Assembly (NCBI RefSeq): GCF_006094695.1
Contig: NZ_CP035103.1
Location: 744,001 to 808,000 of the forward strand
Direction of reading: 5' to 3'
Length of the DNA: 64,000 nt
Source: Kocuria rosea
GTDB taxonomy: Bacteria; Actinomycetota; Actinomycetes; Actinomycetales; Micrococcaceae
Within the stretch, counting starts at the first letter, position 1; every line of letters starts with the position of its first letter. Positions 7,973-43,275 of the stretch are shown here, in pieces. The notes under the pieces are model-generated. The model did no database searches. It saw nothing but the letters and a program-made list of their open reading frames with translations, and was not told where the DNA came from. Position numbers and translations under genes: made by a program.

Positions 7973-9190
7973 TCAGCGGTAGAGCCGCTCCGTGGCCAGG
8001 CGCGCTCCCTCGACGAGGGACTCGAGCTTGGCCCAGGCGATCTGCGGGTGCAGGCGCCCGCCCAGACCGCAGTCGGTCGACGCGACGACGTTCTCGCGGC
8101 CCACGACCGAGGCGAACTGCTCGATCCGGTCGGCCACCAGCTCCGGGTGCTCCACCACGTTCGTCGAGTGGGAGACCACGCCCGGGATGATCACGCGGCC
8201 CTCGGGCAGCGCGTGGTCCTTCCAGACCTTCCACTCGTGGGCGTGCCGGGCGGAGGCGCCCTCGAAGGTGTAGCCGCCGGCGTTGATGGTCAGCATCAGG
8301 TCCACGAGGTGCTTCAGCTCGAGGTCCGTGGTGTGCGGGCCGTGCCAGGAGCCCCAGCACAGGTGGAAGCGGACCTGCTCCTCGGGGATCCCCCGCAGCG
8401 CGTGGTTGAGCGCCTCGACGCGCAGCCGCGTGAACGCCAGGTAGTCCTCGACCGTGGGCTCGGGGTTGATCTGGTCCCAGGACTCCGCGATGGACGGGTC
8501 GTCGATCTGCACGGTCAGCCCGGCGTCCGTGATCGCCAGGTACTCCTCGCGCATCGCGTCGGCGCACGCGTAGACGAGCTCCTCGTCGGTCCTGTAGTAC
8601 TCGTTCGTCACGCGCGCGGCGGAGCCGGGGGAGAGGGCGGCCACGAACCCGGTCTGCGCCCCGGTGGCCGCCATGGCCGCCCGGAGGTTGCGGACGTCCG
8701 AGGCCACGGCCTCCTGTCCCGTGTAGGTCAGCGGCCCGGTGATCTTGGGCTGCGTGGTCGAGGAGCGCCCGGTGAGGATGCCCGACGCCGGGTCCTCGTA
8801 CGCCTCCCGGAAGCGCTCGCGGTCCCGGCGGTCCGGGAAGCTCGTGAGCACGATGTGGCCGGGCGAGGAGCGCCTCTTCTCCGTGGACGCCCACCGGTCC
8901 TCGTCGGTCGGGGTGAGCCCGCCGAGGCGGGAGAAGGAGTAGTTCCACCACGCGCCGTAGTCGACCGCGCTGGACATCGTGTGCCCGTACTCGCCGTCGT
9001 TGACCACGTCCACGCCGATCTCGCGCTGCCGGCGCACCACGTCCTCGACGCCCACGGCGAGCTCGTCGGTGAGCTGCTCGAACGTGATGGCGCCCTCGGC
9101 GTGCCGCTGGTTGGCCTCGAGCAGCCGCGGGGTCCGCGGCAGGGAGCCCACGTGGGTGGTCTGCACGTGGTCGGTGTTCTGCATGGTCAT
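7973..9190 (-). CDS. Core-type cobalamin-independent methionine synthase, second copy (YxjG/YxjH-like)
   Basis: Protein of 405 residues matching only the catalytic C-terminal half of MetE, the length of Bacillus YxjG/YxjH. It should transfer a methyl group to homocysteine in the cytoplasm. The zinc-site residues of MetE are present: His and Cys in RFHLCWGSWHGPHTT and Cys in VASTDCGLGG. The N-terminal HVGSLPRTPRLLEAN and the QIDDPSIAESWD stretch are family hallmarks. It lacks the N-terminal half of full MetE that helps hold polyglutamylated folate, so the methyl donor is uncertain. It is the second gene of a two-gene operon; AGGAGGACACGC precedes its ATG, 40 bp after the first copy. The SAM-I riboswitch at 10450 should control both. 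Confidence 0.85.
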   Translation of the reverse strand: MTMQNTDHVQTTHVGSLPRTPRLLEANQRHAEGAITFEQLTDELAVGVEDVVRRQREIGVDVVNDGEYGHTMSSAVDYGAWWNYSFSRLGGLTPTDEDRWASTEKRRSSPGHIVLTSFPDRRDRERFREAYEDPASGILTGRSSTTQPKITGPLTYTGQEAVASDVRNLRAAMAATGAQTGFVAALSPGSAARVTNEYYRTDEELVYACADAMREEYLAITDAGLTVQIDDPSIAESWDQINPEPTVEDYLAFTRLRVEALNHALRGIPEEQVRFHLCWGSWHGPHTTDLELKHLVDLMLTINAGGYTFEGASARHAHEWKVWKDHALPEGRVIIPGVVSHSTNVVEHPELVADRIEQFASVVGRENVVASTDCGLGGRLHPQIAWAKLESLVEGARLATERLYR

Positions 9191-9230
9191 GCGTGTCCTC
9201 CTGAGGGTCTGCGGGAAGGTCGGGGGCCGG

Positions 9231-10433
9231 TCAGGACCAGAGCCGGCGGGAGGCGAGCTCGGCCCCGCGGGCGAGGGTCTCGAGCTTCGCCGCGGCGATC
9301 TGCGGATGGATCCGCCCGCCCAGGCCGCAGTCGGTCGAGGCGATCACGTTCTCGCGGCCCACCTGGCGGGCGAAGCGCTCGATCCGGTCGGCCACCAGCT
9401 CCGGGTGCTCCACCACGTTGGTGGCGTGGGAGACGATCCCCGGGATGATGATCTTGCCCTCGGGCAGCTCGTGGTCCTGCCAGACCTTCCACTCGTGCTC
9501 GTGCCGGGCGTTGGCGGCCTCGAAGCTGTAGCCGCCGGCCCTGATGGAGAGCATGAGCTCCACCAGGTGCTCGAACCCGAGGTCCGTGGTGTGCGGGCCG
9601 TGCCAGGAGCCCCAGCACAGGTGGAAGCGGACCTGCTCCTCCGGGATGCCCTCGAGGGCGTAGTTGAGGGCCTCGACCCGCTTGCGGGTGAACGCGAGGT
9701 AGTCCTCCACGCCGGGCTCGGGATTGACCTGGTCCCAGTTCTCCGCGATGGACGGGTCGTCGATCTGCACGATCAGCCCGGCGTCGGTGATCGCCCGGTA
9801 CTCCTCGCGCATCACCTCGGCGCAGGCGGTCAGCACCTCGTCCTCGTCCGCGTAGTGGGTGTTCTCCAGCCGCGCGCACGAGCCCGGGGACAGCGCGGCG
9901 AGGTAGCCCTCGCTCGCGCCCGTGGCCTGCAGCCCGGCCTTGAGGTTGCGGATGTCCGCCTCCAGCGCCGCGTGGCCCGTGTACTCCAGCTTCCCGGTGA
10001 TCTTCGGGAACGGCGCCTGCTTGCCCGTGGTGATGCCCGAGGAGGGGTCCGTGTACGCCTCGTGGAAGAGCCGGCGGTCCCGGCGGTCCCCGAAGCTCGT
10101 CAGGACCACCCTGCCGGGCGAGGAGCGCTGCGGCTCCTGCTCCCACAGGTCCACGTCGCCGGGGGTGAGGCCCGAGATCCGGGCGAAGACGTAGTGCCAC
10201 CACGCGCCGTAGTCGACCTCCGCGGCCATGACGTGGCCGTACTCGCCGTCGTTGACCACGTCGATCCCGAGCTCGCGCTGTCGGCGGACCACGTCGACCA
10301 CCGAGTCCTGCAGGAGCCGGTCGTACTCCGCCTCCGGGACGGCCCCCTTCGCCCGGTTGGCCTCGAGCAGCGCCGGGGTGCGCGGGAGGGACCCGGCGTG
10401 GGTCGTGCGGATGCGGTCGGCGCTTCGCAGCAT
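9231..10433 (-). CDS. Core-type cobalamin-independent methionine synthase, first copy (YxjG/YxjH-like)
   Basis: Protein of 400 residues, a close tandem paralogue of the next gene (7973-9190). Most of the middle and C-terminal parts are near identical, including RFHLCWGSWHGPHTTDL and ASTDCGLGGRIHPQI with the zinc-binding His/Cys/Cys. Predicted role: methyl transfer to homocysteine to make methionine, with an unproven methyl donor. The start ATG at 10433 (MLRSADRIRTTHAG) is preceded by AAAGGA, which directly follows the 3' strand of riboswitch helix P1, so SAM binding could block translation. In Bacillus subtilis yxjG and yxjH are likewise tandem paralogues under S-box control, which supports this reading. 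Confidence 0.87.
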   Translation of the reverse strand: MLRSADRIRTTHAGSLPRTPALLEANRAKGAVPEAEYDRLLQDSVVDVVRRQRELGIDVVNDGEYGHVMAAEVDYGAWWHYVFARISGLTPGDVDLWEQEPQRSSPGRVVLTSFGDRRDRRLFHEAYTDPSSGITTGKQAPFPKITGKLEYTGHAALEADIRNLKAGLQATGASEGYLAALSPGSCARLENTHYADEDEVLTACAEVMREEYRAITDAGLIVQIDDPSIAENWDQVNPEPGVEDYLAFTRKRVEALNYALEGIPEEQVRFHLCWGSWHGPHTTDLGFEHLVELMLSIRAGGYSFEAANARHEHEWKVWQDHELPEGKIIIPGIVSHATNVVEHPELVADRIERFARQVGRENVIASTDCGLGGRIHPQIAAAKLETLARGAELASRRLWS

Positions 10434-10449
10434 GGGTCGTGCGTCCTTT

Positions 10450-10547
10450 CCATCGGTCCTGGCGGTAGCACCGGAGGCGGGACGGGGATGCCGTCGCCCG
10501 GGTTGCTGCGGCGTCGTCGAGCCAGATCTCTCGGCCGCTCTGGATGG
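10450..10547 (-). ncRNA. SAM-I (S-box) riboswitch upstream of core-metE pair
   Basis: Read on the minus strand, the 5' part has GAGAGATCTGG, then GACGACGCCGCAGCAACC, a variable hairpin, GGTGCTACCGCCAGG, and ends in GATGG, which pairs with the initial CCATC as P1. CCAGG pairs with the upstream CTGG region (P2). The same skeleton occurs at 30202 and 40085 with compensating changes. P1 touches the ribosome site of the first metE-like gene, suggesting control of translation. High SAM should switch the genes off. Confidence 0.88.
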
Positions 10548-10672
10548 TGACCCTGTCATCCAAGCGCACCCGTGCGCGCTGCGCCATTCGGCGCCCGGAT
10601 GACGGACATGACGCCGTGTGACGCGACCCGGCGCGCACTCCCGGGAGGAGCTGTCCTTCGCGAACATGGCCT

Positions 10673-10697
10673 GGATCACATACCGTGGCGGTGATCC
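10673..10697 (+). promoter_or_regulatory. Promoter with inverted repeat upstream of 3-hydroxybutyrate dehydrogenase
   Basis: TACCGT (10681-10686) looks like a -10 box with TTCGCG about 18 bases upstream. GGATCAC and GTGATCC (10673-10679 and 10691-10697) form a 7-bp inverted repeat around the -10, a likely operator, perhaps for the neighbouring IclR protein (inference). Confidence 0.4.
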
Positions 10698-10742
10698 GTG
10701 CCCCTCACCCCGCGGGCACGACGGACCAGAGGAAGGACCCCC

Positions 10743-11507
10743 ATGTCCCAGACGCCCCAGCAGCAGGACCTCGAGGGCCGCACGGCGCTCGTCACCGGTG
10801 GCGCGAGCGGCATCGGTCTGGCCGCCGCCCGGGCCCTCGCCGGCTCCGGCGCGCACGTGGTCGTGGCCGACGTCGACGAGGCCGGGGCGCAGCGCGTCGC
10901 GGACGAGCTCGGCGGCCGCGCGTGGGCCGTCGACCTGCTCGACACCGCGGCGCTCGCCGAGCTGAGCCTCGAGGTCGACGTGCTGGTCAACAACGCCGGC
11001 ATCCAGAAGGTCGCCCCCCTCCAGGAGTTCGACCCCGCGGACTTCCACCGGATCCTGGTGCTGATGCTGGAGTCCCCGTTCCTGCTGGTGCGCGCCGCGC
11101 TGCCGCACATGTACGAGCGGGGCTGGGGGCGCGTCATCAACGTCTCCTCCGTGCACGGGCTGCGGGCGTCCCCCTACAAGAGTGCCTACGTCTCGGCGAA
11201 GCACGGCCTGGAGGGGCTGTCCAAGACCGTCGCGGTGGAGGGCGCGGCCCACGGGGTGACGAGCAACTGCATCAACCCCGGCTACGTGCGCACCCCGCTC
11301 GTCGAGAAGCAGATCGCCGACCAGGCGAGGGTGCACGGGATCCCCGAGTCCGAGGTGGTGGAGCGGATCATGCTCGGCGAGACGCCGATCAAGAAGCTCG
11401 TGGACCCGGAGGACGTCGGCAGCCTGGTCGCGTGGCTGGCCGGACCGCACGCGTCCATGGTCACCGGGGCCTCCTACACGATGGACGGCGGCTGGACGGC
11501 GCGCTGA
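10743..11507 (+). CDS. 3-hydroxybutyrate dehydrogenase (short-chain dehydrogenase)
   Basis: NAD-dependent SDR of 254 residues that interconverts 3-hydroxybutyrate and acetoacetate. Seen: the nucleotide-binding TGGASGIG near the N-terminus, VNNAG in the middle, catalytic Ser in VINVSSVHGL and the YVSAK Tyr/Lys pair. SPYKSAYVSAKHGLEGLSK and the TNPGYVRTPLVEKQI-like stretch (here SNCINPGYVRTPLVEKQI) are typical of bacterial 3-hydroxybutyrate dehydrogenases. The start at 10743 has AGGAAGG before it; an upstream in-frame start at 10698 lacks one. The scoAB-thiolase operon 1 kb downstream uses its product acetoacetate, which supports the call. The gene is convergent with the IclR gene, with a 16-bp gap. 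Confidence 0.85.
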   Translation: MSQTPQQQDLEGRTALVTGGASGIGLAAARALAGSGAHVVVADVDEAGAQRVADELGGRAWAVDLLDTAALAELSLEVDVLVNNAGIQKVAPLQEFDPADFHRILVLMLESPFLLVRAALPHMYERGWGRVINVSSVHGLRASPYKSAYVSAKHGLEGLSKTVAVEGAAHGVTSNCINPGYVRTPLVEKQIADQARVHGIPESEVVERIMLGETPIKKLVDPEDVGSLVAWLAGPHASMVTGASYTMDGGWTAR

Positions 11508-11523
11508 GCCCGCCTCGGGCCGC

Positions 11524-12303: not shown

Positions 12304-12377
12304 GACTCCACTATATGGACAGTCAGGGGACGAATGGCCGGATGCTGAGGAGAAGCGCCGTCGTGCCGCCGGATCTG

Positions 12378-12406
12378 TTGACCGGCATGTGGAGGCTCCC
12401 TAGATT
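12378..12406 (+). promoter_or_regulatory. Sigma70-type promoter of the scoA operon
   Basis: TTGACC, exactly 17 bases, then TAGATT, about 40 bases upstream of the GTG of scoA. It lies in the divergent region shared with the IclR gene, where that regulator is likely to bind. Confidence 0.65.
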
Positions 12407-12445
12407 GAGTGCTGGGTCACAGTCCGACGAGAGGAAGGGACAAGG

Positions 12446-15068: not shown

Positions 15069-15084
15069 CCCCCGCCCCCTCCGC

Positions 15085-15144
15085 TGACCCGCGGGGGCCC
15101 GGGTGACCACGGTTTTTCGTGGTCACCCGGGCCCCCGCGGGTCA
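15085..15144. repeat. Perfect 27-bp-stem hairpin element, copy 1
   Basis: Left arm 15085-15111, loop GTTTTT, right arm 15118-15144; the arms are exact reverse complements. A second copy in opposite loop orientation lies at 16078-16137, with one base changed in the arm. The last three bases supply the stop codon of the AbiEi-like gene. It may double as a two-way terminator between the thiolase gene and that gene, but the T-run is in the loop, not after the stem. Confidence 0.85.
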
Positions 15145-15939: not shown

Positions 15940-16077
15940 GGGGTCAGGCTCACCGCGGCGGGGCCCGCCCGTCCGAGGTCCGGCCCGGCACGGGGACGGT
16001 GCCCGGGAGGGGGATGCGTGAGCGCCCGGCGTGCAGTGCGGACGGAGCTCGACGCGCCTGACCCCGGAATGACCCGA

Positions 16078-16137
16078 TGACCCGCCGGGGCCCGGGTGAC
16101 CACGAAAAATCGTGGTCACCCGGGCCCCAGCGGGTCA
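16078..16137. repeat. 27-bp-stem hairpin element, copy 2 (inverted relative to copy 1)
   Basis: Left arm 16078-16104, loop AAAAAT, right arm 16111-16137, 26 of 27 pairs. Arm sequence differs from copy 1 (15085-15144) at one position. The A-rich loop shows it is in the opposite orientation, so the two copies are inverted repeats around the AbiEi-like gene. Confidence 0.85.
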
Positions 16138-16185
16138 TCCGGCGAGGGGGTGATCTGCGGTCCCGGCGGTGCTCCGCCCGCGGGG

Positions 16186-16785: not shown

Positions 16786-16807
16786 GGCGTCGATTCTAGG
16801 GGAGGGG

Positions 16808-16841: not shown

Positions 16842-16882
16842 GGAGAGCTGGATCACAGACCGCCACACGCAAGGAGACGGCC

Positions 16883-28219: not shown

Positions 28220-28714
28220 TCAGGACAGGACCTGGCGCTTCGACGAGATGACCCCGGTGTTGAAGCCGGCCAGGTGGAGCCCGCCGTGGAAGCGGGCGTG
28301 CTCGATCTTCAGGCAGCGGTCCATGACCACGGAGAGCCCGCCCTCCTCGGCGATCCGGGCGGCCTCCTCGTGCCAGGACCCCAGCTGCAGCCACAGGGTC
28401 CTCGCCCCGACGGCCACGGCCTCGTGGGCCACGCCGGGGAGGTCGTCGTGGCGCCGGAACGCGTCGACGACGTCGGGCGTCTCCGGCAGGTCCGCGAGGG
28501 ACGGGTAGACGGGCCGGCCCATGATCTCCCGCAGCGCCGGGTTGACGAAGTACACCCGGTACGGCGAGGAGGACAGCAGGTAGGTCGAGACGAAGTAGGA
28601 GGCGCGGGACGGTTTGTCGGACGCGCCCACGACGGCGATCGACTCGGTGCCGTGCAGGATGCTCAGCCGCTCGGGCGCGCTCGGCCCAGTCCACGTGCGG
28701 GTCTCGGCGGTCAT
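28220..28714 (-). CDS. CoA-binding domain protein in the metY operon
   Basis: Protein of 164 residues with a single Rossmann-like CoA-binding domain: IAVVGASDKPSRASYFVSTY, VYFVNPALREIMGRPVYPSL, TLWLQLGSWHEEAARIAEEG and VVMDRCLKIEH are all typical of YccU/YneT-type proteins. Its ATG overlaps the metY stop (ATGA), so it is translationally coupled and under the same SAM-I riboswitch. Its biochemical role is unknown; coupling points to sulfur or methionine metabolism. A related but different copy lies at 41057-41521 next to another SAM-controlled gene. Confidence 0.87.
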   Translation of the reverse strand: MTAETRTWTGPSAPERLSILHGTESIAVVGASDKPSRASYFVSTYLLSSSPYRVYFVNPALREIMGRPVYPSLADLPETPDVVDAFRRHDDLPGVAHEAVAVGARTLWLQLGSWHEEAARIAEEGGLSVVMDRCLKIEHARFHGGLHLAGFNTGVISSKRQVLS

Positions 28715-30117
28715 CGGAGCGCTCCTTCGGTCGTGACGTCGGCGTCGGCAGCAGCGGTGTCGTCGGCGGTGGCGCCGGCCGGGGCGCCGGCCGCGCGGCC
28801 GGGGGTCTCCCGGGGCAGGCCGGTGGCCGCCGTGAGGGCCTGGTCGAGGTCCCAGAGGATGTCCTCGACGTCCTCGAGGCCCACCGACAGGCGGATGAGG
28901 TCCTCCCGCACCCCCGCGCCGACCAGCTGCTCGGCGCTCAGCTGTTGGTGCGTGGTGGAGGCGGGGTGCAGGACGAGGGTGCGGGCGTCCCCGATGTTGG
29001 CGAGGTGGCTGGCCAGCTGCAGGTTCTCGATGAAGCGCGCCCCGACCTCCCGCCCTCCGAGCCGCTCCGTGGGGGAGACCCCGAACGCGAACACGGAGCC
29101 CGGGCCGAGGGGCAGGTACCGCCGGGCCCGCTCGTGATGGGGGTGGCTCGGCAGCCCGGCCCAGTTGACGTAGGAGACCCGGGGGTCCTCCTCCAGCCAC
29201 CGCGCGACGGCCCGCGCGTTGGCCAGGTGCGCGTCCATGCGCTGCGGCAGCGTCTCCACGCCCTGGATCAGGTTCCAGGCGGACTGGGGCGCCAGGGCGG
29301 GGCCGATGTCCCGCAGCTGCTCGGTGCGCAGCCGGGTCAGGAATCCGTACTCCCCGAAGTTCCCCCACCAGGTGACGTCGTTGTACGTGGGCACCGGCTC
29401 CGTCATGGACGGGAAGTTGCCGTTCGCCCAGTCGAAGCGGCCGGACTCGACGACGACGCCGCCCAGCGTGGTGCCGTGCCCGCCCAGGAACTTGGTGGCC
29501 GAGTGGATGACGATGTCCGCCCCGTGCTCGATCGGACGGACCAGGTACGGCGGGGTCATGGTCGAGTCGACGACCAGCGGCACGCCGGCCTCGTGCGCGA
29601 CCGCCGCCAGGCCCTCCAGGTCCGCGACGTCGCCGGAGGGGTTGGCAACGACCTCCGTGTAGACGGCCTTGGTGCCCGGGCGCACCGCCGCCCGGTAGTC
29701 GGCGGGGTCGGTGCCGGGGACGAACGTGGTCTCGATCCCGAAGCGGCGCAGGGTGACGTCCAGCTGGGTGACCGTGCCCCCGTAGAGCTGGGCGGAGGCC
29801 ACGATGTGGTCCCCGGCCTGGGCGAGCGCGGCGAACACGAGGAACTCGGCGGACATGCCGGAGGCGGTGGCCACGGCGCCGATGCCGCCCTCGAGGGACG
29901 CGACGCGCTCCTCGAACGCCGCGACGGTCGGGTTGCCGATGCGGGAGTAGATGTTGCCGTACTTCTGCAGGGCGAACAGGTTGGCGGCGTCGTCGGCGTC
30001 CTTGAAGACGAACGAGGTGGTCTGGTAGATCGGGACCGCACGGGCGCCGTGCTCGGCGTCGGGGGTGCCCCCGGCGTGCAGGGCGCGGGTGCGGAACCCG
30101 AACTGGTGGTCGGCCAT
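28711..30117 (-). CDS. metY: O-acetylhomoserine sulfhydrylase (O-acetylhomoserine aminocarboxypropyltransferase)
   Basis: PLP enzyme of 468 residues of the Cys/Met metabolism family. It joins O-acetylhomoserine with sulfide to give homocysteine, and members of the family can use methanethiol to give methionine directly. Seen: FGFRTRALHAGGTPD at the N-terminus, YSRIGNPTVAAFEERVASLE, the PLP lysine in HSATKFLGGHGT, and LIRLSVGLEDVEDILWDLDQ near the end. After that comes a 35-residue Ala/Asp-rich tail not typical of the family. GAGGAG precedes the start. A SAM-I riboswitch lies 85 bases upstream, so it should be off when SAM is plentiful. First gene of a two-gene operon. Confidence 0.93.
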   Translation of the reverse strand: MADHQFGFRTRALHAGGTPDAEHGARAVPIYQTTSFVFKDADDAANLFALQKYGNIYSRIGNPTVAAFEERVASLEGGIGAVATASGMSAEFLVFAALAQAGDHIVASAQLYGGTVTQLDVTLRRFGIETTFVPGTDPADYRAAVRPGTKAVYTEVVANPSGDVADLEGLAAVAHEAGVPLVVDSTMTPPYLVRPIEHGADIVIHSATKFLGGHGTTLGGVVVESGRFDWANGNFPSMTEPVPTYNDVTWWGNFGEYGFLTRLRTEQLRDIGPALAPQSAWNLIQGVETLPQRMDAHLANARAVARWLEEDPRVSYVNWAGLPSHPHHERARRYLPLGPGSVFAFGVSPTERLGGREVGARFIENLQLASHLANIGDARTLVLHPASTTHQQLSAEQLVGAGVREDLIRLSVGLEDVEDILWDLDQALTAATGLPRETPGRAAGAPAGATADDTAAADADVTTEGALR

Positions 30118-30201
30118 GGGGAAGCTCCTCGTGCGAGTGGTGCCGCTGGACGGTCCCGGGCGTCAGGAGGGTCCCGGCGGGGGTGCCGGGGGTGCGGTGC
30201 C

Positions 30202-30294
30202 CCATCGGTCCTGGCGGTAGCACCGTGCGGTCTGCGACGTCGACCACGGTTGCTGCGGCGTCGTCGGTCCAGGTCCCTCGGCCGCTCGGGATGG
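30202..30294 (-). ncRNA. SAM-I (S-box) riboswitch upstream of metY
   Basis: On the minus strand: CCATC (P1 5' strand), GAGGGACCTGG, GACGACGCCGCAGCAACC, a variable stem, GGTGCTACCGCCAGG, GATGG (P1 3' strand). The same plan appears at 10450-10547 and 40085-40183. Unlike those, P1 is 85 bases from the ATG; a small hairpin (CCCGGC ... GCCGGG, 30173-30190) lies between, so control may be at transcription rather than at the ribosome site. Confidence 0.88.
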
Positions 30295-30303
30295 CTGCCT
30301 CCC

Positions 30304-34128: not shown

Positions 34129-34133
34129 GGGGC

Positions 34134-34892: not shown

Positions 34893-34940
34893 CCTAGGGG
34901 CGGTGCGGGCTGAGACGTCACAAGTCTCAACGTCCTTGCG

Positions 34941-35093: not shown

Positions 35094-35099
35094 CGGGGG

Positions 35100-37226
35100 C
35101 TAGCGCCGTGCGGCCAGGACGTCGGCGATGCGCTCGAGGGACTCCTCGTTCTGCAGCGAGGACCGGTCGCCGAGGGGGGCGCCCTCCCACAGCTGCGCGA
35201 GCAGCCGCCGGGTGATCTTCCCGGACCGGGTCTTCGGCAGGTCGGGGACCGCCACGACCGCCCGCGGCTTGGCGATCGGCCCGATCTCGTGCGCCACGTG
35301 CTCGCGCAGGGCAGCGGTCAGCTCCTCCGCCGGGACCCGGGCGGCCTCGGGGGTCAGCACCACGTAGGCGAGCACCGCGTGCCCGGTCAGCTCGTCGCGC
35401 ACCGGTGCCGCGCCGGCCTCCACCACCCACGGGTGGGTGACGAGCGCCGACTCGATCTCGATGGTGGACAGCCGGTGCCCGGAGACGTTGATGACGTCGT
35501 CGACCCGCCCCAGGATGTAGATGTCCCCCTCCTCGTCGTAGCGGGCGCCGTCCCCGGCGAGGAACCAGCCCTGCTCGGCGTAGGCCTGCCAGTAGGAGGA
35601 GAGGTAGCGCTGCGGGTCGCCCCACACGGTGCGGGCCATCGAGGGACCGGTCCGGTCCACCACCACGAAGCCCTGCACCCCGGGCGGGACCGTCTCCCCG
35701 GCCTCGTCGACCACGCGGGTGGAGATCCCCGGGACCGCCCGGGTCGCGCAGCCGGGCTTGAGCGCGGTGCGCGGGGCTCCGTCGTCGAACGTCCCCGGGG
35801 GCGCGAACTGGGGGTCGTGCGGCCGCGGGGACATCACGGTGGCGCCGGTCTCGGACTGCCACCACGTGTCCACGAACGGCACCTCGTCCCTGCCCAGCTG
35901 CGCGCGCAGCCAGCGCCAGGCCTCGGGGTTGATCGACTCGCCCACGGAGCCGAGCAGCCGGATCGAGTTGAGGTTGTAGAGCGGCGGGACGCCCTTCGGG
36001 AACGCGCCCATCAGGGAGCGGATCAGCGTGGGCGCCGTGTAGTAGGCGGTGACCCCGTAGCGCTCGACCACCTCGAAGTGCCGGCCCCAGTGCGGGGTGT
36101 TCGGGGTGCCCTCGTAGATCACCTCGGACACGCCGTTGACCAGCGGCCCGTAGATCTCGTAGGTGTGCGCGGTGACCCACGCGAGGTCCGCGGTGCACCA
36201 GTGGACGGTCGAGTCCACCTTCGCGGGGTCGTTGACGGTGGCCAGCTCGTCCGGGCGCAGCACGCCGTCCTCGTCCTCGACGTCGGGCAGCAGGTCGAAC
36301 AGCAGCGCGTGGGTGTAGGCGGTCTGCACGAGGTAGCCGCCCATCGTGTGCACCAGGCCCTTGGGCCGTCCGGTGGTCCCGGAGGTGTAGATGATGAACA
36401 GCGGCGTCTCGGCGTCGAACGCCTCGGGCACGTGCACGTCGGACTGGTCGGCGATCAGCTCGTGCCACCACACGTCCCGCCCGCGCGTCCACGGGACCGC
36501 GTCCTCCTCCTTGGAGTGCGTCCCCCGGGTGCCCCGCGGCAGGTCCGTGCGTCCGGGCCGGGAGGTGCGGCGCACGACGACGACGTGCTCGACCGCGTTG
36601 TCACCGCTGCAGGCCTCGTCGGCCACGGCCTTCACGGGCACCACGGCGCCGCGCCGGTGCTGCCCGTCCGTGGTCACGAGGACCTTGGCGCCGGTGTCCT
36701 CGACGCGAAAGCGCAGCGCCTCGGCGGAGAACCCGCCGAAGACCAGGGAGTGCACCGCGCCGATGCGGGCGCAGGCCAGCGTGATGATGACGGTCTCCGG
36801 GATGACGGGGAGGTAGATCACCACCCGGTCGCCCTGCTCCACGCCCAGGGCGAGCAGGGCGTTGGCGGCGCGGGAGACCTCCCGCTGCAGGTCGGCGTAG
36901 GTGTAGACCAGCCGGTCCCCGGGCTCTCCCTCGAAGTACAGGGCCACGTGGGCGCCGCGGCCGGCCTCGACGTGGCGGTCCACGCAGTTGTGGGCCACGT
37001 TGAGCCTGCCGCCCTCGAACCACGCGATCTCCGGGACCGACCAGGTGGGGCCGCCCTGCTCGTCCGTCCCGAGCCGCCGCGGGGCCTCGAAGCGGTGCGC
37101 GGTGGTCCACGGCCGCGCCCAGTCGAGGCGCGACGCCTGCGCCTCCCAGAAGGCGATCCGGGCCTCGTCCGAGACCAGGGCGGGATTGGGGGTGGGGGAG
37201 GAGGGGTCGCTCCAGCTGAAGCTCAC
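35100..37226 (-). CDS. acs: Acetyl-CoA synthetase (AMP-forming)
   Basis: Adenylate-forming enzyme of 708 residues that makes acetyl-CoA from acetate, ATP and CoA. Motifs in order: an N-terminal ACAS domain (ALVSDEARIAFWEAQASRL), LACARIGAVHSLVFGGFSAE, the phosphate loop IYTSGTTGRPKGLVHT, WQSETGATVMSP, the hinge DIYILGRVDDVINVSGHRLS and the C-terminal KTRSGKITRRLL with the usual acetylated Lys. Somewhat longer than the common 650, with an insertion near GTRGTHSKEEDAVPW. The GTG at 37226 is chosen because AAAGGACAGCACC stands before it. It lies 59 bp after ssuC on the same strand and might receive read-through from that riboswitch operon. Confidence 0.93.
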   Translation of the reverse strand: MSFSWSDPSSPTPNPALVSDEARIAFWEAQASRLDWARPWTTAHRFEAPRRLGTDEQGGPTWSVPEIAWFEGGRLNVAHNCVDRHVEAGRGAHVALYFEGEPGDRLVYTYADLQREVSRAANALLALGVEQGDRVVIYLPVIPETVIITLACARIGAVHSLVFGGFSAEALRFRVEDTGAKVLVTTDGQHRRGAVVPVKAVADEACSGDNAVEHVVVVRRTSRPGRTDLPRGTRGTHSKEEDAVPWTRGRDVWWHELIADQSDVHVPEAFDAETPLFIIYTSGTTGRPKGLVHTMGGYLVQTAYTHALLFDLLPDVEDEDGVLRPDELATVNDPAKVDSTVHWCTADLAWVTAHTYEIYGPLVNGVSEVIYEGTPNTPHWGRHFEVVERYGVTAYYTAPTLIRSLMGAFPKGVPPLYNLNSIRLLGSVGESINPEAWRWLRAQLGRDEVPFVDTWWQSETGATVMSPRPHDPQFAPPGTFDDGAPRTALKPGCATRAVPGISTRVVDEAGETVPPGVQGFVVVDRTGPSMARTVWGDPQRYLSSYWQAYAEQGWFLAGDGARYDEEGDIYILGRVDDVINVSGHRLSTIEIESALVTHPWVVEAGAAPVRDELTGHAVLAYVVLTPEAARVPAEELTAALREHVAHEIGPIAKPRAVVAVPDLPKTRSGKITRRLLAQLWEGAPLGDRSSLQNEESLERIADVLAARR

Positions 37227-37285
37227 GGTGCTGCTGTCCTTTCCGGCCGGCACGGACGACGGTTCCACTGTGCCAGGCGCACGTG

Positions 37286-38107
37286 TCAGGCCCATTTCTT
37301 GGCGGCCCACTTCTCGAAGACCCCCAGCAGCGCGTCCGTCGCCTTGCCGAGCACCGCGAGCAGCACGATGGCGAGGAGCAGGCGGTCGGTGCGGCCGTTG
37401 TTCTGCGAGTCGGTGAGCAGCCAGCCCAGGCCCATGGAGGCGCCCAGCAGCTCGGCGGCCACGAGGAACAGCCACGCCTGGGCCAGGGCCAGGCGCAGCC
37501 CCGAGATGACCGACGGCATGACGGCCGGCAGCTGCACCGCGGTGAGCAGGCGCAGCCCGTGCAGCCCGAACGCCCGCGCCGCCTCGATGAGGTTGCGGTC
37601 CACGTGCTGCAGGGCCGCGGAGACGGTGGTGTAGACCGGGAAGAACGCGCCGATGGCCACCAGCGTGACCTTGGAGTCCTCGCCGAGGCCGATCCACAGC
37701 AGCAGCAGCGGCACCCACGCCAGGGACGGCACCGCCCGGAACGCCCCGATCGTGGGGCCCACCAGTGTGGAGCCCCAGCGGGAGAGGCCGATGAAGGACC
37801 CGGCCACGAGGCCGAGCCCGGCGCCGATCAGGAAGCCGATCAGCACGCGCTGGGTCGAGATGCCCACGTGGGTCCACAGGTCCCCGCCGGCCAGCAGGCC
37901 GATCCCGGCCTCGAGCACCGCGAGCGGGGCCGGCAGCTGCACGGCGCTGAAGACCCCGGCGGTGGACAGCACGTGCCACAGCAGCAGCAGCGCGGCGGGC
38001 AGCAGCAGGCCCAGGCCGGTGCGCAGCAGCGGCCGCCGCCGGGGGGCCGCGGCGGGGGCGTCGTCGAACCGCTCCGCCTCCTCGGCGGGGGACAGGGGCT
38101 GCGTCAC
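37286..38107 (-). CDS. ssuC: Aliphatic-sulfonate-type ABC transporter permease
   Basis: Inner-membrane permease of 273 residues with about six spans and the BPD-type EAA loop EAARAFGLHGLRLLTAVQLP. FRAVPSLAWVPLLLLWIGLG and the LVAAELLGASMGLGWLL stretch are typical of SsuC/TauC. An N-terminal 35-residue acidic/Pro-rich tail precedes the first span. The GTG start overlaps the stop of ssuA (GTGA). It is third in the SAM-riboswitch operon ssuB-ssuA-ssuC. Substrate: sulfonates or related organic sulfur by family. Confidence 0.9.
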   Translation of the reverse strand: MTQPLSPAEEAERFDDAPAAAPRRRPLLRTGLGLLLPAALLLLWHVLSTAGVFSAVQLPAPLAVLEAGIGLLAGGDLWTHVGISTQRVLIGFLIGAGLGLVAGSFIGLSRWGSTLVGPTIGAFRAVPSLAWVPLLLLWIGLGEDSKVTLVAIGAFFPVYTTVSAALQHVDRNLIEAARAFGLHGLRLLTAVQLPAVMPSVISGLRLALAQAWLFLVAAELLGASMGLGWLLTDSQNNGRTDRLLLAIVLLAVLGKATDALLGVFEKWAAKKWA

Positions 38108-39147
38108 TGCCCGGCCCCGACCAGCTCGGCCGCGCGGGACGCGTCGGCGTTCTCGGCGTAGGAGCTCTCCACGATGCTCCCGAGCGCCTCGTCGATCTGC
38201 TCCTGGCCGGCCACGTCGTCGGACTCCACGAAGATCGGCCCGACCTTCTCGAGGACCGCCAGCTGCTCGTCGCCCGGCACGTGGTCGATGTCCAGGTTGG
38301 TGCGCTCGAGCACCTTCTCGGCCACGGACAGCTCGATCCCGGCCGCCTCGGCGAGCAGCTGCGCGGTCTCCTCCGTGTTCTCCTGCGCCCACTGCCGGGC
38401 GTAGGCGTAGACGTCCACCACGGTCTGGGCGGCCTCGGGCTGCTCCTCGAGGAAGCTCTCGTGGGCGTTGAGGAAGCCGTAGGTGTTGAAGTCGACGTTG
38501 CGGTAGAACAGCTCCGCGCCGTTCTCCTCCGCGGCGGCCATGATCGGGTCGAGCCCGGACCAGGCGTCCACCTGGCCGTTCTCCAGGGCGGCGCGGCCGT
38601 CGGCGTGCTGCAGGTTCTGGATCGTGACGTCCCCGGCGTCCACACCGGCCTCGTCGAGGGCCTGGAGCAGGAAGAAGTACGGGTCGGTGCCCTTGGTCGC
38701 GGCCACGGTGCGGCCCTCGAGGTCCGCGACCTCCTGCACCTCGCTGCCGGCGGTGGTGACCAGGGCGGACCACTCCGGCTGCGAGTAGAGGTCGATCACC
38801 CGGATCGGGGTGCCGTTGCTGCGGGCCAGCAGCGCCGCGGAGCCCGCGGTGGAGCCGATGTCCACCGCCTCCGCACGCAGCGCCTCGTTGGCCTTGTTCG
38901 ACCCGGCGGACTGCACCCACTCCACCTCGATGCCCTCCTCGGCGAACGCGGTCTCGAGCCAGCCCTTCTCCTTGATCACCACGGAGAGCGGGTTGTAGGT
39001 GGCCCAGTCCACGCGGACGGTGCCGTCCCCGGCGGCCTCCGCGGGCGGCTCACCGGAGCCCTCACCGGCCATGCACCCGGTCAGGCCCAGGGCCAGGACG
39101 GCGGCGAGTGCGGGGACGGTGCGGACGGAGCGCTGGGGCAGGGGCAT
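38104..39147 (-). CDS. ssuA: Aliphatic-sulfonate-type ABC transporter substrate-binding lipoprotein
   Basis: Exported lipoprotein of 347 residues. Signal peptide with basic start (PLPQRSVRTV), hydrophobic core and lipobox LTGC near residue 25, so it is anchored outside the membrane. The mature part matches the SsuA/NrtA/TauA group: YNPLSVVIKEKGWLE, WVQSAGSNKANEALRAEAVD, IGSTAGSAALLARSNGTPI, and LVTTAGSEVQEVADLEGRTV. GAAAGG precedes the ATG. Control by SAM rather than sulfate suggests a methionine-linked sulfur source (inference). Confidence 0.9.
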   Translation of the reverse strand: MPLPQRSVRTVPALAAVLALGLTGCMAGEGSGEPPAEAAGDGTVRVDWATYNPLSVVIKEKGWLETAFAEEGIEVEWVQSAGSNKANEALRAEAVDIGSTAGSAALLARSNGTPIRVIDLYSQPEWSALVTTAGSEVQEVADLEGRTVAATKGTDPYFFLLQALDEAGVDAGDVTIQNLQHADGRAALENGQVDAWSGLDPIMAAAEENGAELFYRNVDFNTYGFLNAHESFLEEQPEAAQTVVDVYAYARQWAQENTEETAQLLAEAAGIELSVAEKVLERTNLDIDHVPGDEQLAVLEKVGPIFVESDDVAGQEQIDEALGSIVESSYAENADASRAAELVGAGQ

Positions 39148-39242
39148 GGCGGAGCCTTTCGTGGTGGACGGACGGTGCCGGGCGGCGCGGGCGGGTGCCG
39201 CCGCTGGTCCGGGGAGGGGAGTCGGGGTGGGGGCGGGCCGCG

Positions 39243-40076
39243 TCAGCGGGTCGCGGGGTGGTGGGTGTCGACGCCGAGGTGGCCGAGGAGCTGCACGCGC
39301 AGCTCGGCGAGGACCTCGGAGGCCCGGTCCCGGGGGCGCTCGCCGGGGACGGCGAGGATCGTGCTGATCGAGGCCGGGGCGGTGGGCCCGGTCCGGCCCA
39401 GGACCACGATCCGGTCCGCGAGCTGCAGCGCCTCGTCGACGTCGTGGGTGACGAGCAGGACGGTGGTGGGCTGGGCCGCGTGGATCGTGAGCAGCAGGTC
39501 CTGCATCTGCAGGCGGGTCAGGGCGTCGAGCGCGCCGAAGGGCTCGTCGAGCAGCAGGACCCCGGGATTGCGGGCCAGGGCCCGGGCCAGGGACGCGCGC
39601 TGGGCCATGCCGCCGGAGACCGCGCGGGGACGGTGGCCGGCGTGCGCGGTGAGCCCCACCAGGCGCAGCAGGTCGTCGATCACGGCGTCCCCCTCGTCCC
39701 GGGGGAGTCCGCGGGGCAGGCCCAGGCGGACGTTCTCGCGCACCGAGCGCCACGGCAGCAGGCGGGGCTCCTGGAAGGCGACCGCGCAGCGCGGGTCGAT
39801 GCCGGACACGGGGGTGCCGTCGATGAGCACCCGTCCGGCCGAGGCGGTGTCGAGCCCCGCGGCGGCCCGCAGCAGCGTGGACTTGCCGCACCCCGAGGGC
39901 CCCAGGACCGCCAGGACCTCGCCGGGCCGGGCCGTGACGTCGACGTCCTGCAGGACGTAGTGGGTCTCGCGGCCGGACGGGAAGGCCTTGCCGACGCGCT
40001 CGAAGGCCACGGAGAAGGCGCGCTTCGCGGTGCCCGGTGCGGTGGCCGGCGCAGAGCCCAGCAGGGAAGTGCTCAT
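39243..40076 (-). CDS. ssuB: Aliphatic-sulfonate-type ABC transporter ATPase
   Basis: Cytoplasmic ATPase of 277 residues: Walker A in LGPSGCGKSTL, Q-loop in VAFQEPRLLPW, signature VSGGMAQRASLARAL, Walker B in VLLLDEPFGAL, and the switch His in LLVTHDVDEAL. It powers the SsuA/SsuC import system and is the first gene of the operon. The start at 40076 (MSTSLLGSA) is chosen since GGAG, seven bases upstream, is the only ribosome site. That GGAG is part of the 3' strand of riboswitch helix P1 (GATGGAG), so SAM binding should hide it directly. Confidence 0.9.
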   Translation of the reverse strand: MSTSLLGSAPATAPGTAKRAFSVAFERVGKAFPSGRETHYVLQDVDVTARPGEVLAVLGPSGCGKSTLLRAAAGLDTASAGRVLIDGTPVSGIDPRCAVAFQEPRLLPWRSVRENVRLGLPRGLPRDEGDAVIDDLLRLVGLTAHAGHRPRAVSGGMAQRASLARALARNPGVLLLDEPFGALDALTRLQMQDLLLTIHAAQPTTVLLVTHDVDEALQLADRIVVLGRTGPTAPASISTILAVPGERPRDRASEVLAELRVQLLGHLGVDTHHPATR

Positions 40077-40084
40077 GATCAACT

Positions 40085-40183
40085 CCATCGGTCCTGGCAT
40101 TAGCACCTCGCACGGAGGATCAGACGGATCCGTGCCGGTTGCTGCGACGTCGACGAGCCAGGTCTCTCAGCCGCTCCGGATGG
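40085..40183 (-). ncRNA. SAM-I (S-box) riboswitch upstream of ssuBAC
   Basis: Minus-strand order: CCATC, GAGAGACCTGG, CGACGTCGCAGCAACC, a long variable hairpin (GCACGGA ... TCCGTGC), AGGTGCTAATGCCAGG, GATGG. The AGGTGCTAAT junction is the clearest S-box match of the three copies. P1 ends in the ribosome site of ssuB. Confidence 0.9.
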
Positions 40184-40194
40184 TTACACCACCA

Positions 40195-40224
40195 ATTGAA
40201 CGTCCTCGGCGTGTTCCCTGGCAA
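40195..40224 (-). promoter_or_regulatory. Promoter of the ssuBAC riboswitch transcript
   Basis: On the minus strand TTGCCA (40224-40219), 18 bases, TTCAAT (40200-40195), 12 bases ahead of the riboswitch P1. Confidence 0.5.
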
Positions 40225-40293
40225 ATCCGTCGCATCCGTGGTGATCGCGACACATCGCTGGCACGGGAGCCCTCCGTGCCCCACCATGGACCC

Positions 40294-40971
40294 ATGACGA
40301 GCCGCAGAAGCCCGGCCCGGGCGGACCTGGTGCGCGACGCCTGCGCGGCGTTCGGCGCGGTCCTCGACGGGCTCGGCGACGACGACTCCTGGGCCGCCAC
40401 GGGCTGCCCGGGGTGGTCGGTCCGGGACCTCACCCACCACTGCGCGATGGACGCCCTGCGGGGGCTGGTCGCGCTGCACACGCCCACCACCGCCCGCCCC
40501 GACCGGGACGCCGCGACCTACTGGACCGACTGGGGCGGCGATCCCGCGGGGGCCGCCGAGGCCCGGCGCCACACCCGCGTGGCCGCGTCCATGGTCCTGG
40601 ACTGGGAGCCGGTGCGCGCCCTCCACCGCGAGACCACCCGGGCGCTCGTGCACGCCGCGCAGCACTGCGGCGACGGCGCGGTCCGCACCCAGGGGCACGT
40701 GCTGGGCGTCGAGGACCTGCTGAGCACCCTCGCGGTGGAGGCCACGGTCCACCACCTGGACCTGATCCAGCACCTGGACGGCTCCCCGGGTCCCGCCGTG
40801 GACGGGCTCGCCGAGGTCCGCCGGGTCCTCACCGACCTGTGGGAGCGGGAACCGCTCGAGCACTGGAGCGACGAGCACTTCGCCCGCGTGGGCACCGGCC
40901 GGGCGGAGCTGACCGCCCAGGAGCGTGCGGAGCTGGGCGCGCACGCGGACCTCCTGCCGCTCTTCTCCTGA
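40294..40971 (+). CDS. Maleylpyruvate-isomerase N-terminal (MDMPI/DinB-like) family protein
   Basis: Protein of 225 residues with a DinB-like four-helix bundle of the mycothiol-dependent maleylpyruvate isomerase type. GCPGWSVRDLTHHCAMD (metal His) and VEATVHHLDLIQHLDG (two further His) are the conserved parts. The family uses mycothiol as cofactor, but many members have unknown substrates. The start at 40294 has the leaderless layout CACCAT-N6-ATG. It is divergent from ssuB and upstream of a CoA-binding protein gene. It is far from the homogentisate cluster, so a role there is not implied. Confidence 0.75.
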   Translation: MTSRRSPARADLVRDACAAFGAVLDGLGDDDSWAATGCPGWSVRDLTHHCAMDALRGLVALHTPTTARPDRDAATYWTDWGGDPAGAAEARRHTRVAASMVLDWEPVRALHRETTRALVHAAQHCGDGAVRTQGHVLGVEDLLSTLAVEATVHHLDLIQHLDGSPGPAVDGLAEVRRVLTDLWEREPLEHWSDEHFARVGTGRAELTAQERAELGAHADLLPLFS

Positions 40972-41056
40972 CCCTCCCCCCTCCGCGAGGTCGCCGACAC
41001 GTGCAATCCCGCGGAGGAAGAAGGAGGGGGAACGGGTTCCGTGCCAGGCTGGGGGC

Positions 41057-41521
41057 ATGAGCCGCAACGACCCCGCCGTCATCGACCGCCTCATGACACG
41101 GCCCGGCCGGTGGGCCGTGGTGGGGCTGACCGGCAACACGGCCCGTCCGGCGCACTCGGTGGCGAAGCGGATCCGGGACGACCTCGGCATGACGATCGTC
41201 CCGGTCAACCCGAAGGGCGAGCCGGTGCACGGCGAGCCCGGCCACCGCACGCTCGCCGAGGTCCCGGGGCCGATCGACGTGGTGGACTGCTTCGTGAACT
41301 CCCGCCGCGTCGGCGCGGTGGTGGACCAGGCCATCGCCGTGGGCGCCGCCGCGGTGTGGCTGCAGCTGGGCGTCGTCGACGAGGACGCCGCCGCCCGGGC
41401 GGAGCGGGCCGGCCTCGACGTGGTCATGGACACCTGCCCCCTGATCGAGCTCCGGTCCCTGCTCCGGCGGGGCTGGACCCTGGACCCGGGCCGGACCCCG
41501 CCGCTCGCCCCGCCCGGCTGA
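41057..41521 (+). CDS. CoA-binding domain protein (second copy)
   Basis: Protein of 154 residues with a complete CoA-binding Rossmann domain: RWAVVGLTGNTARPAHSVAK, MTIVPVNPKGEPVHG, VDCFVNSRRVGAVVDQAIAV, AAVWLQLGVVDEDAAARAER and the end VVMDTCPLIEL. It is of the same family as 28220-28714 but differs at most positions. The start fits a leaderless message: CAGGCT, six bases, ATG. It lies just upstream of the SAM-IV-controlled monooxygenase. Role unknown. Confidence 0.85.
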   Translation: MSRNDPAVIDRLMTRPGRWAVVGLTGNTARPAHSVAKRIRDDLGMTIVPVNPKGEPVHGEPGHRTLAEVPGPIDVVDCFVNSRRVGAVVDQAIAVGAAAVWLQLGVVDEDAAARAERAGLDVVMDTCPLIELRSLLRRGWTLDPGRTPPLAPPG

Positions 41522-41619
41522 ACGACCCGGCTGAGCGACCCGGCGGAGCCGCCCGAACCGGGTGGGCGCAGGCCCGATGCGGGCCGGGACCGTCCCCGTG
41601 CGGCGGGACCGCACAGGGG

Positions 41620-41650
41620 TTGCACCCGGTCAGGGGCCACCCGCTAAGCT
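41620..41650 (+). promoter_or_regulatory. Promoter of the SAM-IV transcript
   Basis: TTGCAC (41620-41625), 19 bases, TAAGCT (41645-41650); the expected start is shortly before the riboswitch at about 41664. Two small hairpins upstream (GGCCCG-ATG-CGGGCC near 41573) may end the preceding gene. Confidence 0.5.
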
Positions 41651-41663
41651 GTCCCCCGACGAC

Positions 41664-41785
41664 GATGACGAGTCCCGACACGAAGCTCTGGCTGGTCGGG
41701 CGGCAACCCTCTCCCGTAGCGGGGTGCCCCAGATGAACATCGGGCCGCGGTGCACGTGTTCCGCGGCAAGTACGGCGCCCACCAG
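41664..41785 (+). ncRNA. SAM-IV riboswitch upstream of flavin monooxygenase
   Basis: Seen in order: GATGACGAG, CCCGAC pairing with GTCGGG, then GGCGGCAACCCTCTCCCG, CCCGT-AG-CGGGG with GGTGCCCC, AGATGAACATCGGGCC, and a G+C-rich 3' hairpin (GCCGCGG ... CCGCGGC). The GGCAACCCTC ... GGGGTGCCCC core with a downstream pseudoknot partner is the actinobacterial SAM-IV form and differs from the three SAM-I copies. The 3' limit is approximate. Confidence 0.85.
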
Positions 41786-41856
41786 TGCGTCGGACCCGCG
41801 GGCAGGTCTCCACGACGCACGGGCGCGGGTCGGCATCGACCCGGGAGGAACACCCC

Positions 41857-43275
41857 ATGAGCAAGCGCATCGCCCTGAACGCCTTCGACATGACCTGCGT
41901 GGGCCACCAGGCCCCCGGTCTGTGGAAGCACCCCCGCTCCCGGGCGGACGAGTACAACACGATCGAGTACTGGACGGACGTCGCCCAGGTCCTGGAGAAG
42001 GGGCTCTTCGACGCGCTGTTCCTCGCGGACGTCGTCGGGTACTACGACGTCTACCAGAACTCCGCGGCCCCGGTGATCCGGGACGCCACCCAGATCCCGG
42101 TCAACGACCCCTTCATGCAGATCTCCGCGATGGCGGCCGTGACGAAGCACCTCGGCTTCGGCGTGACGAGCGCGATCACCTACGAGCAGCCGTACCCGCT
42201 CGCCCGGAAGTTCGCGACCCTCGACCACCTCACGAAGGGCCGGATGGGCTTCAACGTGGTGACGTCCTACCTGAAGTCGGCCGCCGAGAACCACGGGCTG
42301 ACGGAGCAGATCTCCCACGACGAGCGCTACGAGATCGCCGAGGAGTTCATGGAGGTCTGCTACAAGCTCTGGGAGGGCTCCTGGGAGGACGGCGCGGTCC
42401 GGCGCGACCGGGTCAACGGGGTCTTCGCCGACCCGGCGCTCGTCCACCCGATCCAGCACCACGGCAGGTACTTCGACGTCCCCGGCATCGGGCTGACCGA
42501 GCCGTCCCCGCAGCGCACGCCGCTGATCTTCCAGGCCGGGGCCTCCTCCCGCGGGCGGGCGTTCGCCGGCCGCCACGCGGAGGCGGTGTTCGTGGGCGGC
42601 ATCCGCCCGGACCTGACCCGGGTGGTGACCGACAAGCTGCGCGACGAGGCGGAGGCCGGCGGGCGGAACCGGGACGACCTCAAGATCTTCGCCATGCTGC
42701 ACGTGATCGTCGACGAGACCGACGCGAAGGCCGAGCAGAAGCGCCGCGACTACGAGCGGTACGCGGACACCGACGGCGCGCTGGGCCTCGTGGGCGGCTG
42801 GTCCGGGCTGGACCTGGGCCGCTACGACGAGAACGACGTCCTGGAGTACATCAAGACCGACTCGATCCAGTCCTTCCTGACCCCCTTCACCACGGCCGAC
42901 CCGCACAAGAAGTGGACGATCAAGGAGGTCGCCAAGCACATCTCGATGGGCGGCATGGGCGTGCCGATCGTCGGGTCCCCGCAGACCGTGGCCGACGAGC
43001 TCGAGCGGTGGATCGACGAGGGCGGGCTGGACGGCATCAACCTCGCCTACCACGTGTCCCCGGGCTCGTTCGAGGACTTCGTGGAGTGGGTCGTGCCGGA
43101 GCTGCAGAAGCGCGGCCGCTACCGCACCGGCTACGAGGGCACCACGCTGCGCGAGAACCTCTACGGCAAGGGGCAGACCAAGGTGCTCGGCACCCACCCC
43201 GCCGCCGCGTTCCGGGGCGCCTACGCGGGCAGGCCCTCCGCCGCGGACACCCCCGCCCGCCAGCTGGCCCTCTGA
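41857..43275 (+). CDS. FMN-dependent monooxygenase of the NtaA/SnaA/DszA (luciferase-like) group
   Basis: Soluble luciferase-fold monooxygenase of 472 residues that needs reduced FMN from a partner reductase. Family text: LNAFDMTCVGHQAPGLWKHP, EYWTDVAQVLEKGLFDALFL, TYEQPYPLARKFATLDHLTK, GRMGFNVVTSY and PLIFQAGASSRGRAFAGRHA. The group includes dimethyl sulfide monooxygenase (DmoA), sulfone and nitrilotriacetate monooxygenases. Control by a SAM-IV riboswitch points to an organosulfur substrate; dimethyl sulfide or a sulfone is my best guess. No flavin reductase gene is next to it. GGGAGGAACACCCC precedes the ATG. A strong terminator follows. Confidence 0.87.
   Translation: MSKRIALNAFDMTCVGHQAPGLWKHPRSRADEYNTIEYWTDVAQVLEKGLFDALFLADVVGYYDVYQNSAAPVIRDATQIPVNDPFMQISAMAAVTKHLGFGVTSAITYEQPYPLARKFATLDHLTKGRMGFNVVTSYLKSAAENHGLTEQISHDERYEIAEEFMEVCYKLWEGSWEDGAVRRDRVNGVFADPALVHPIQHHGRYFDVPGIGLTEPSPQRTPLIFQAGASSRGRAFAGRHAEAVFVGGIRPDLTRVVTDKLRDEAEAGGRNRDDLKIFAMLHVIVDETDAKAEQKRRDYERYADTDGALGLVGGWSGLDLGRYDENDVLEYIKTDSIQSFLTPFTTADPHKKWTIKEVAKHISMGGMGVPIVGSPQTVADELERWIDEGGLDGINLAYHVSPGSFEDFVEWVVPELQKRGRYRTGYEGTTLRENLYGKGQTKVLGTHPAAAFRGAYAGRPSAADTPARQLAL

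Follow-up and report, generated by a model that had tools for sequence, protein, structure and literature searches.

Three-helix SAM-I elements without P4 and a SAM-IV element precede four sulfur units in a 64-kb window of Kocuria rosea

We analysed a 64,000-nucleotide stretch of the Kocuria rosea genome (contig NZ_CP035103.1, positions 744,001 to 808,000; hereafter the window), in which four S-adenosylmethionine (SAM) riboswitch elements precede four units of sulfur genes. An Rfam covariance-model search of the window (gathering score 44.4 for RF00162 and 38 for RF00634) yielded two distinct classes, three SAM-I elements and one SAM-IV element. All four lay where a preliminary description of the window had placed them, the positions 10450, 30202 and 40085 named there being the exact 3' ends of helix P1. 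The results showed that the three SAM-I elements have three helices, with helix P4 absent and the conserved core kept. The preliminary description missed this architecture, in which the added interest lies, the use of two classes being ordinary in the family Micrococcaceae. Each of the four elements is predicted to bind SAM and, once SAM is bound, would likely prevent its operon from being translated, a reading in which we place good confidence.

The class assignments were examined at the level of single nucleotides. Two of the three window SAM-I elements reached the RF00162 gathering score. Of the 23 highly conserved SAM-I nucleotides listed in PMC3764141, 22 were present in each of the three elements, including the SAM-binding core, J1/2 and P3, and the kink-turn nucleotides G19, A20, G35 and A36 were also present. 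A family model built from 56 Micrococcaceae elements, the window's three included, scored the core-metE, metY and ssu elements at 99.1, 78.6 and 103.2 bits, respectively. The fourth element matches SAM-IV (RF00634) over the full length of the model, with P1-P3 and P5 and no P4, and carries the strands of both pseudoknots, PK-1 (TCTGG 41687-41691 and CCAGA 41729-41733) and PK-2 (CCGTA 41714-41718 and TACGG 41771-41775).

The absence of P4 was consistent across the family. When cmscan aligned the three window SAM-I elements to the SAM model, it skipped the P4 section in each of them. We aligned the 56 family elements, built the model and searched 72 loci with it, which gave 110 SAM-I matches with 102 different aligned sequences; at least four of the 110 rows are repeated genomic places (L062 and L206 repeat L031, and two L029 rows repeat L059). 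The joint between P3 and P1 (J3/1) was 12-13 nt in all 110 matches, in an alignment fitted to the family model trained on the 56 sequences, and 12 nt in the element at 10447. This interval includes a PK-1 strand and therefore leaves no room for helix P4. The P1 3' strand read GATGG in 108 of the 110 matches. In the 56 aligned elements, the structure of P1, P2, P3 and PK-1 paired in 96.4% of cells, P2 paired in 97-100% of cells, and the PK-1 strands were complementary in 56/56 rows without ever varying. The covariation score was 0.139 compared with 0.061 for shuffled alignments, none of 500 shuffles being as high, and the both-sided changes were located in P2 and upper P3.

Across the order, 113 of 248 genomes gave matches to the family model, up to 13 per genome, all counted whatever their P4 state. 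Elsewhere in the phylum, a P4-sized interval was found in 34 of 46 parsed elements, including those of the 7-10-Mb genomes of family f5, and 12 of the 46, picked for shortness and spread across eight families by their handle labels, were P4-less; these numbers are not a frequency, as the sample comprised 50 loci (20 chosen by hand, 12 of them for short match length, and the 30 best-scoring), with four unparsed and the P4 of L104 and L142 read by eye. A loss of P4 special to Micrococcaceae is rejected by the P4-less elements elsewhere in the phylum. The idea that Rfam misses these elements also failed, since RF00162 (E ≤0.001) and the family model both counted 43 in eight relatives. Counting from P1 to P1, the shortest P4-less SAM-I element had 77 nt.

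The SAM clan is a standard example of one binding core under differing outer braces, and PK-2 is also a feature of its SAM-I/IV class. The window SAM-I elements are like the SAM-I class (S box, RF00162) in P1, the kink-turn P2, PK-1, P3, the conserved nucleotides and the sulfur genes behind them, but have three helices instead of four. According to PMC6890682, SAM-IV has no P4 and carries P5 and PK-2; in SAM-I/IV, P2 is undivided, P4 is present and PK-1 is missing. The window SAM-I elements share the absence of P4 with SAM-IV, whereas they carry the SAM-I kink-turn; two of their three leaders (ssu and core-metE) have no room for P5 and PK-2 because the gene start lies 8 or 16 nt behind P1, and the element at 30199 was not searched for either. 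With SAM-I/IV (RF01725) they have the SAM-binding core of the clan in common, and they differ from it in the divided P2 (kink-turn), the presence of PK-1 and the absence of P4; the Rfam results showed no separate RF01725 score. With a probability somewhat above even, Actinobacteria would hold a distinct fourth SAM-clan architecture: a SAM-I of three helices in which a constant 12-13-nt J3/1 takes the place of P4, which lacks PK-2 and which often merges P1 with the ribosome-binding site (RBS). A literature search by title and start of abstract found nothing on P4-less SAM-I elements or on SAM riboswitches of Kocuria or Micrococcales among the papers listed, which does not show absence from print, and the architecture may already be on record in alignments such as the RF00162 seed of Rfam.

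We next consider the level of control. Of the 100 parsed elements, 66 had a start codon (ATG, GTG or TTG, in frame and followed by a coding-like frame) at 2-25 nt behind P1, a count made without a chance control; 106 of the 110 matches had been examined (L206, both L029 rows and L047 were left out, here and in the nearest-gene count below), and six were unparsed. In 47 of the 66 short-spaced elements, P1 was followed by AG, completing GGAG together with P1. A start codon within 25 nt of P1 suggests that SAM likely blocks ribosome binding directly. The RBS in P1 is as published for SAM-I: PMC2258182 describes an RBS in the 3' side of SAM-I P1, with Actinobacteria and Cyanobacteria as the groups in which translation is most often attenuated directly, so the translational mode is not new.

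For the leaders (Table 1) we infer SAM binding, an OFF sense and action at the translational level. When SAM is scarce, P1 would be open and the ribosome would load, and the genes for organosulfur import, the monooxygenase and homocysteine and methionine synthesis would be made. When SAM rises, it would close P1. The closed P1 would hold two Shine-Dalgarno (SD) bases in the ssu leader, and in the core-metE leader the SD would stand directly behind it, while in the metY and monooxygenase leaders an anti-SD hairpin in the spacer of about 80 nt would do the blocking.

Several observations weigh against this reading or parts of it. The metY-unit element fell 0.2 bits below the RF00162 cut-off; the shortfall was confined to this one element and the four matched two models, which leaves the two-class proposal of the preliminary description standing. 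On the family alignment, P1 and PK-1 were without both-sided changes, and they hardly vary, so covariation supports P2 and upper P3 only. Folding calculations, with pseudoknots and SAM outside them, yielded no switch for the core-metE, metY or ssu leader: forcing the aptamer left the SD more open in the first and paired, as in the free state, in the second; in the third, the two P1 bases stayed paired with or without forcing, and the SD bases next to them opened further when the aptamer was forced. For the SAM-IV leader, only the free fold was calculated. We count the folding outcome against the details of the switch and not against the identity of the elements. The absence of terminator-like sites from the metY and monooxygenase leaders, which favours the reading, comes from a scan that depends on a T run and that other terminators would escape. 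Elsewhere in the genome, no sulfur gene is evident downstream of the SAM-IV element at 2925220, and class membership is thus no guarantee of a sulfur target.

The SAM-I elements could instead control transcription termination and not translation, which we consider highly improbable. Transcription attenuation dominates among Firmicutes riboswitches according to PMC2258182, but the same paper gives translation attenuation as commonest in other bacterial groups. The leaders also argue against termination: the scan detected nothing terminator-like in the two longer ones, those of metY and the monooxygenase, and in two of the three SAM-I leaders the start codon follows P1 at 8 and 16 nt, too close for a separate terminator.

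Table 1. Elements, leaders and genes of the four units, with two further SAM-I elements of the genome. Positions are those of the window, except in the last two rows.
Feature	Position	Strand	Evidence or context
SAM-I (RF00162), core-MetE unit	10447..10550	-	Rfam 51.9 bits, E 4.8e-9
SAM-I-type, metY unit	30199..30297	-	Rfam 44.2 bits, E 8.5e-7 (whole window, permissive threshold)
SAM-I (RF00162), ssu unit	40082..40186	-	Rfam 49.8 bits, E 2e-8
SAM-IV (RF00634), monooxygenase unit	41664..41778	+	Rfam 94.3 bits, E 7.4e-16
core-metE leader	P1 3' strand 10454-10450; adjoining SD AAAGGA 10449-10444; ATG 10433	-	sequence
metY leader	P1 3' strand 30206-30202; spacer ~80 nt; CCTCCT 30170-30165 could pair with SD GAGGAG 30130-30125	-	sequence
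ssu leader	P1 3' strand GATGG 40089-40085; SD GGAG 40086-40083, two-base overlap; ATG 40076	-	sequence
monooxygenase leader	SD GGGAGG 41843-41848; ~80 nt from aptamer to gene	+	sequence
core-MetE-like methionine synthase 1, catalytic domain only	9231..10433	-	PF01717 E 3.5e-15; under NCBIfam cut-offs
core-MetE-like methionine synthase 2	7973..9190	-	PF01717 E 3.2e-19; under NCBIfam cut-offs
metY, O-acetylhomoserine sulfhydrylase family	28711..30117	-	TIGR01326 578.8 bits, cut-off 495.1
CoA-binding protein, 4-nt overlap with metY	28220..28714	-	PF13380 E 1.1e-39
ssuB-like ATPase	39243..40076	-	PF00005; top NCBIfam models nitrate / aliphatic-sulfonate ABC ATPases, under cut-off
ssuA-like substrate-binding protein	38104..39147	-	TIGR01728 206.1 bits, cut-off 163.5
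ssuC-like permease	37286..38107	-	PF00528; PRK11365 187.9 bits, under cut-off
acetate-CoA-ligase-like gene, behind ssuC	35100..37226	-	PRK00174 756.9 bits, cut-off 657
NtaA/DmoA-family flavin mononucleotide-dependent monooxygenase	41857..43275	+	TIGR03860 541.5 bits, cut-off 279.7
SAM-I outside the window	719257, 25 kb before the window		before metF-like and metE genes
SAM-I outside the window	253668		before SfnB-like / MFS / DmoA-family operon

The genes behind the four elements agree with those named earlier (a core-MetE pair, metY with a coenzyme A (CoA)-binding protein, ssuBAC and a monooxygenase), to which we add the acetate-CoA-ligase-like gene. PMC7857596 describes core methionine synthases that work without methyl-folate. 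The monooxygenase was 94-97% identical to its counterparts in five Kocuria records, including K. polaris, K. rosea and K. dechangensis. The acetate-CoA-ligase-like gene was the nearest reference gene behind SAM-I in 15 of 106 family elements, and a possible role for it is the supply of acetyl-CoA for homoserine acetylation. Two small genes lie between the ssu SAM-I element and the monooxygenase SAM-IV element; a second CoA_binding_2 protein (41057-41521), besides the one behind metY, lies just upstream of the SAM-IV element.

To place the four units in the wider regulon, the own genome (3.95 Mb, a single contig) was searched. Of its five SAM-I matches, four exceeded the cut-off and the fifth, the window's 30199 element, fell just short of it; SAM-IV gave five matches above the cut-off and two weak ones (22.7 and 21.6 bits, the latter at 3873230). 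Apart from the one before the monooxygenase, SAM-IV elements stood before a metQ-metN-metI-like set, metY-metX, and an O-acetylhomoserine (OAH)-sulfhydrylase-family gene with cystathionine gamma-synthase, and the fifth is the one at 2925220. Five of the ten genome elements lay within 66.6 kb, an arrangement reached with a frequency of 9.5e-5 in 200,000 random placements, and four lay in 32 kb (frequency 3.9e-4); both frequencies are optimistic, because the spans were picked after the data had been seen. The clustered regulon of several sulfur operons proposed earlier is borne out to the extent that the clustering exceeds chance, with about ten elements in the genome and a shared SAM-responsive regulon as the natural reading.

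The element at 2925220 belongs to an inverted SAM-IV-like pair about 300 nt apart (L017:8221-8346(-) and 8642-8755(+); contig 2925220 and 2925641). The two have similar sequences, score 67.3 and 22.7 bits and carry CCAACC/GGTGG instead of the usual GCAACC/GGTGC. One stands before a short open reading frame (ORF) and a PIN-domain ORF and the other before a small ORF that was not scanned, with no sulfur gene evident. Within the window, microRNA-family matches at 15085, 16076 and 47679 were under their own cut-offs and are read as chance matches to strong hairpins. Two closely similar long hairpins about 1 kb apart (15085-15144 and 16076-16139), with arms around CCCGGGTGACCACG, are perhaps terminators or a small dispersed repeat.

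The preliminary description had called SAM-I beside SAM-IV unusual, which the relatives do not support. Among 120 sampled family genomes, SAM-I was found in 98 and SAM-IV in all 120; both classes occurred in 98, so co-occurrence is the rule in the family. SAM-I elements were also clustered in eight relatives, all chosen for having SAM-I: 5/6 in 18 kb (G048), 5/6 in 23 kb (G072), 5/5 in 23 kb (G034), 6/8 in 23 kb (G027), 5/6 in 16 kb (G001), 3/4 in 38 kb (G005), 3/4 in 33 kb (G061) and 2/4 in 9 kb (G100). By pattern search, SAM-IV preceded the monooxygenase in 22 of 24 loci of Kocuria, Rothia and 'Curtobacterium sp. S6' and in none of 14 other loci, some of which had little upstream sequence. 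The 5'-to-5' gap between SAM-I and SAM-IV, measured in 16 of the 24, was 94-207 nt in eight and 822-2843 nt in eight; four stretches had no SAM-I match (L026, L032, L034, L037), two had no SAM-IV by pattern and two were unmeasured. SAM-IV pairs on one strand, about 1.6 kb apart, were seen in G039, G047, G071, G086, G091, G019 and G106, which suggests two regulated genes in a row.

We then compared the first genes behind the two classes in the eight relatives, covering 30 of 35 SAM-IV and 30 of 43 SAM-I elements. Labels, here and in the nearest-gene count, were assigned by the closest match among 21 reference proteins from the own genome; in the relatives, NCBIfam checks covered mainly the MetN-labelled genes, for which the best model was MetN in 5/5, all under cut-off. 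Behind SAM-IV stood metYX-type metY (8, one per genome), flavin reductase (6), SfnB-like (4), DmoA (3), MetQ (3), MetF-like (2), major facilitator superfamily (MFS; 2) and unassigned genes (2). Behind SAM-I stood SsuB (6), SfnB-like (6), MetN (4), DmoA (3, and 2 weak), core-MetE (3), window-type metY (2), and MetF, acetate-CoA ligase, MetZ-labelled and unassigned genes (1 each). This tally is less biased than the nearest-gene survey, whose 40 relative SAM-IV loci were taken from the head of a list sorted by score and over-represent metY. The flavin reductase, found behind SAM-IV in six of the eight relatives by Pfam (L232, L233, L237, L239, L243, L245), is likely a partner of the regulon's flavin monooxygenases.

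In every relative examined, SAM-IV stood on the metY-metX trunk, and SAM-I mostly on the scavenging island. This division could mean that the two classes answer different SAM levels, organosulfur use being switched on at another degree of starvation than ordinary methionine synthesis, an explanation that we regard as rather unlikely. It would account for the metYX-type metY under SAM-IV in 8/8 relatives and the own genome, for the SsuB-type first genes, none of which was assigned to SAM-IV in the relatives tallied, and for the SAM-IV kept before the monooxygenase in the Kocuria/Rothia group, whose genes make up a single starred clade with 27 members in a tree of 62 DmoA-type proteins (21 labelled SAM-IV, two without an element, and four unlabelled from the L228, L234 and L031 genomes, with SAM-IV there). 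However, DmoA-type, MetZ-labelled, MetF-like, SfnB-like and methionine-transporter genes occurred under either class, some as distant paralogues. DmoA-type genes were under SAM-IV in Kocuria/Rothia and G100 and under SAM-I in G001, G027 and G034, and the OAH-sulfhydrylase-family gene labelled MetZ, which follows SAM-IV in the own genome, follows SAM-I in G100. SAM-I DmoA genes of other genera fell mostly in a clade of 16 (10 labelled SAM-I, six unlabelled), and the unlabelled G100 gene with SAM-IV lies inside it. One row labelled by locus only fell in a third clade, and some deep joins of the tree were flagged as long-branch meetings.

The same gene types under either class fit better with a historical mixture, in which vertical descent, transfer and the shuffling of operons carried both classes through the sulfur genes of the lineage and the two serve the same function. 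We consider this account probable, by a modest measure. Both classes in 98 of the 120 sampled genomes agree with it, as do divergent SAM-I/SAM-I pairs in other genera (L072, L215, L217) where Kocuria has SAM-I/SAM-IV; within the sample, however, the metYX-SAM-IV and ssu-SAM-I pairings look too constant for free exchange. The divergent SAM-I/SAM-I pairs also dispose of the proposal that two classes are kept to avoid inverted repeats at divergent promoters. Taken from the gene labels and the tree, most pairings of class and gene appear to have been kept by descent, and several gene types show exchange.

Neighbouring genera carry either class on the same gene types, and their genomes are thus a ready-made experiment on the retention of two classes. 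If the P4-less elements bind SAM, they would be natural minimal aptamers with which to test the need for each brace, and would give high-GC bacteria a compact OFF switch at the translational level. If the fourth architecture is true, both known braces of the SAM core, P4 and PK-2, would be dispensable.

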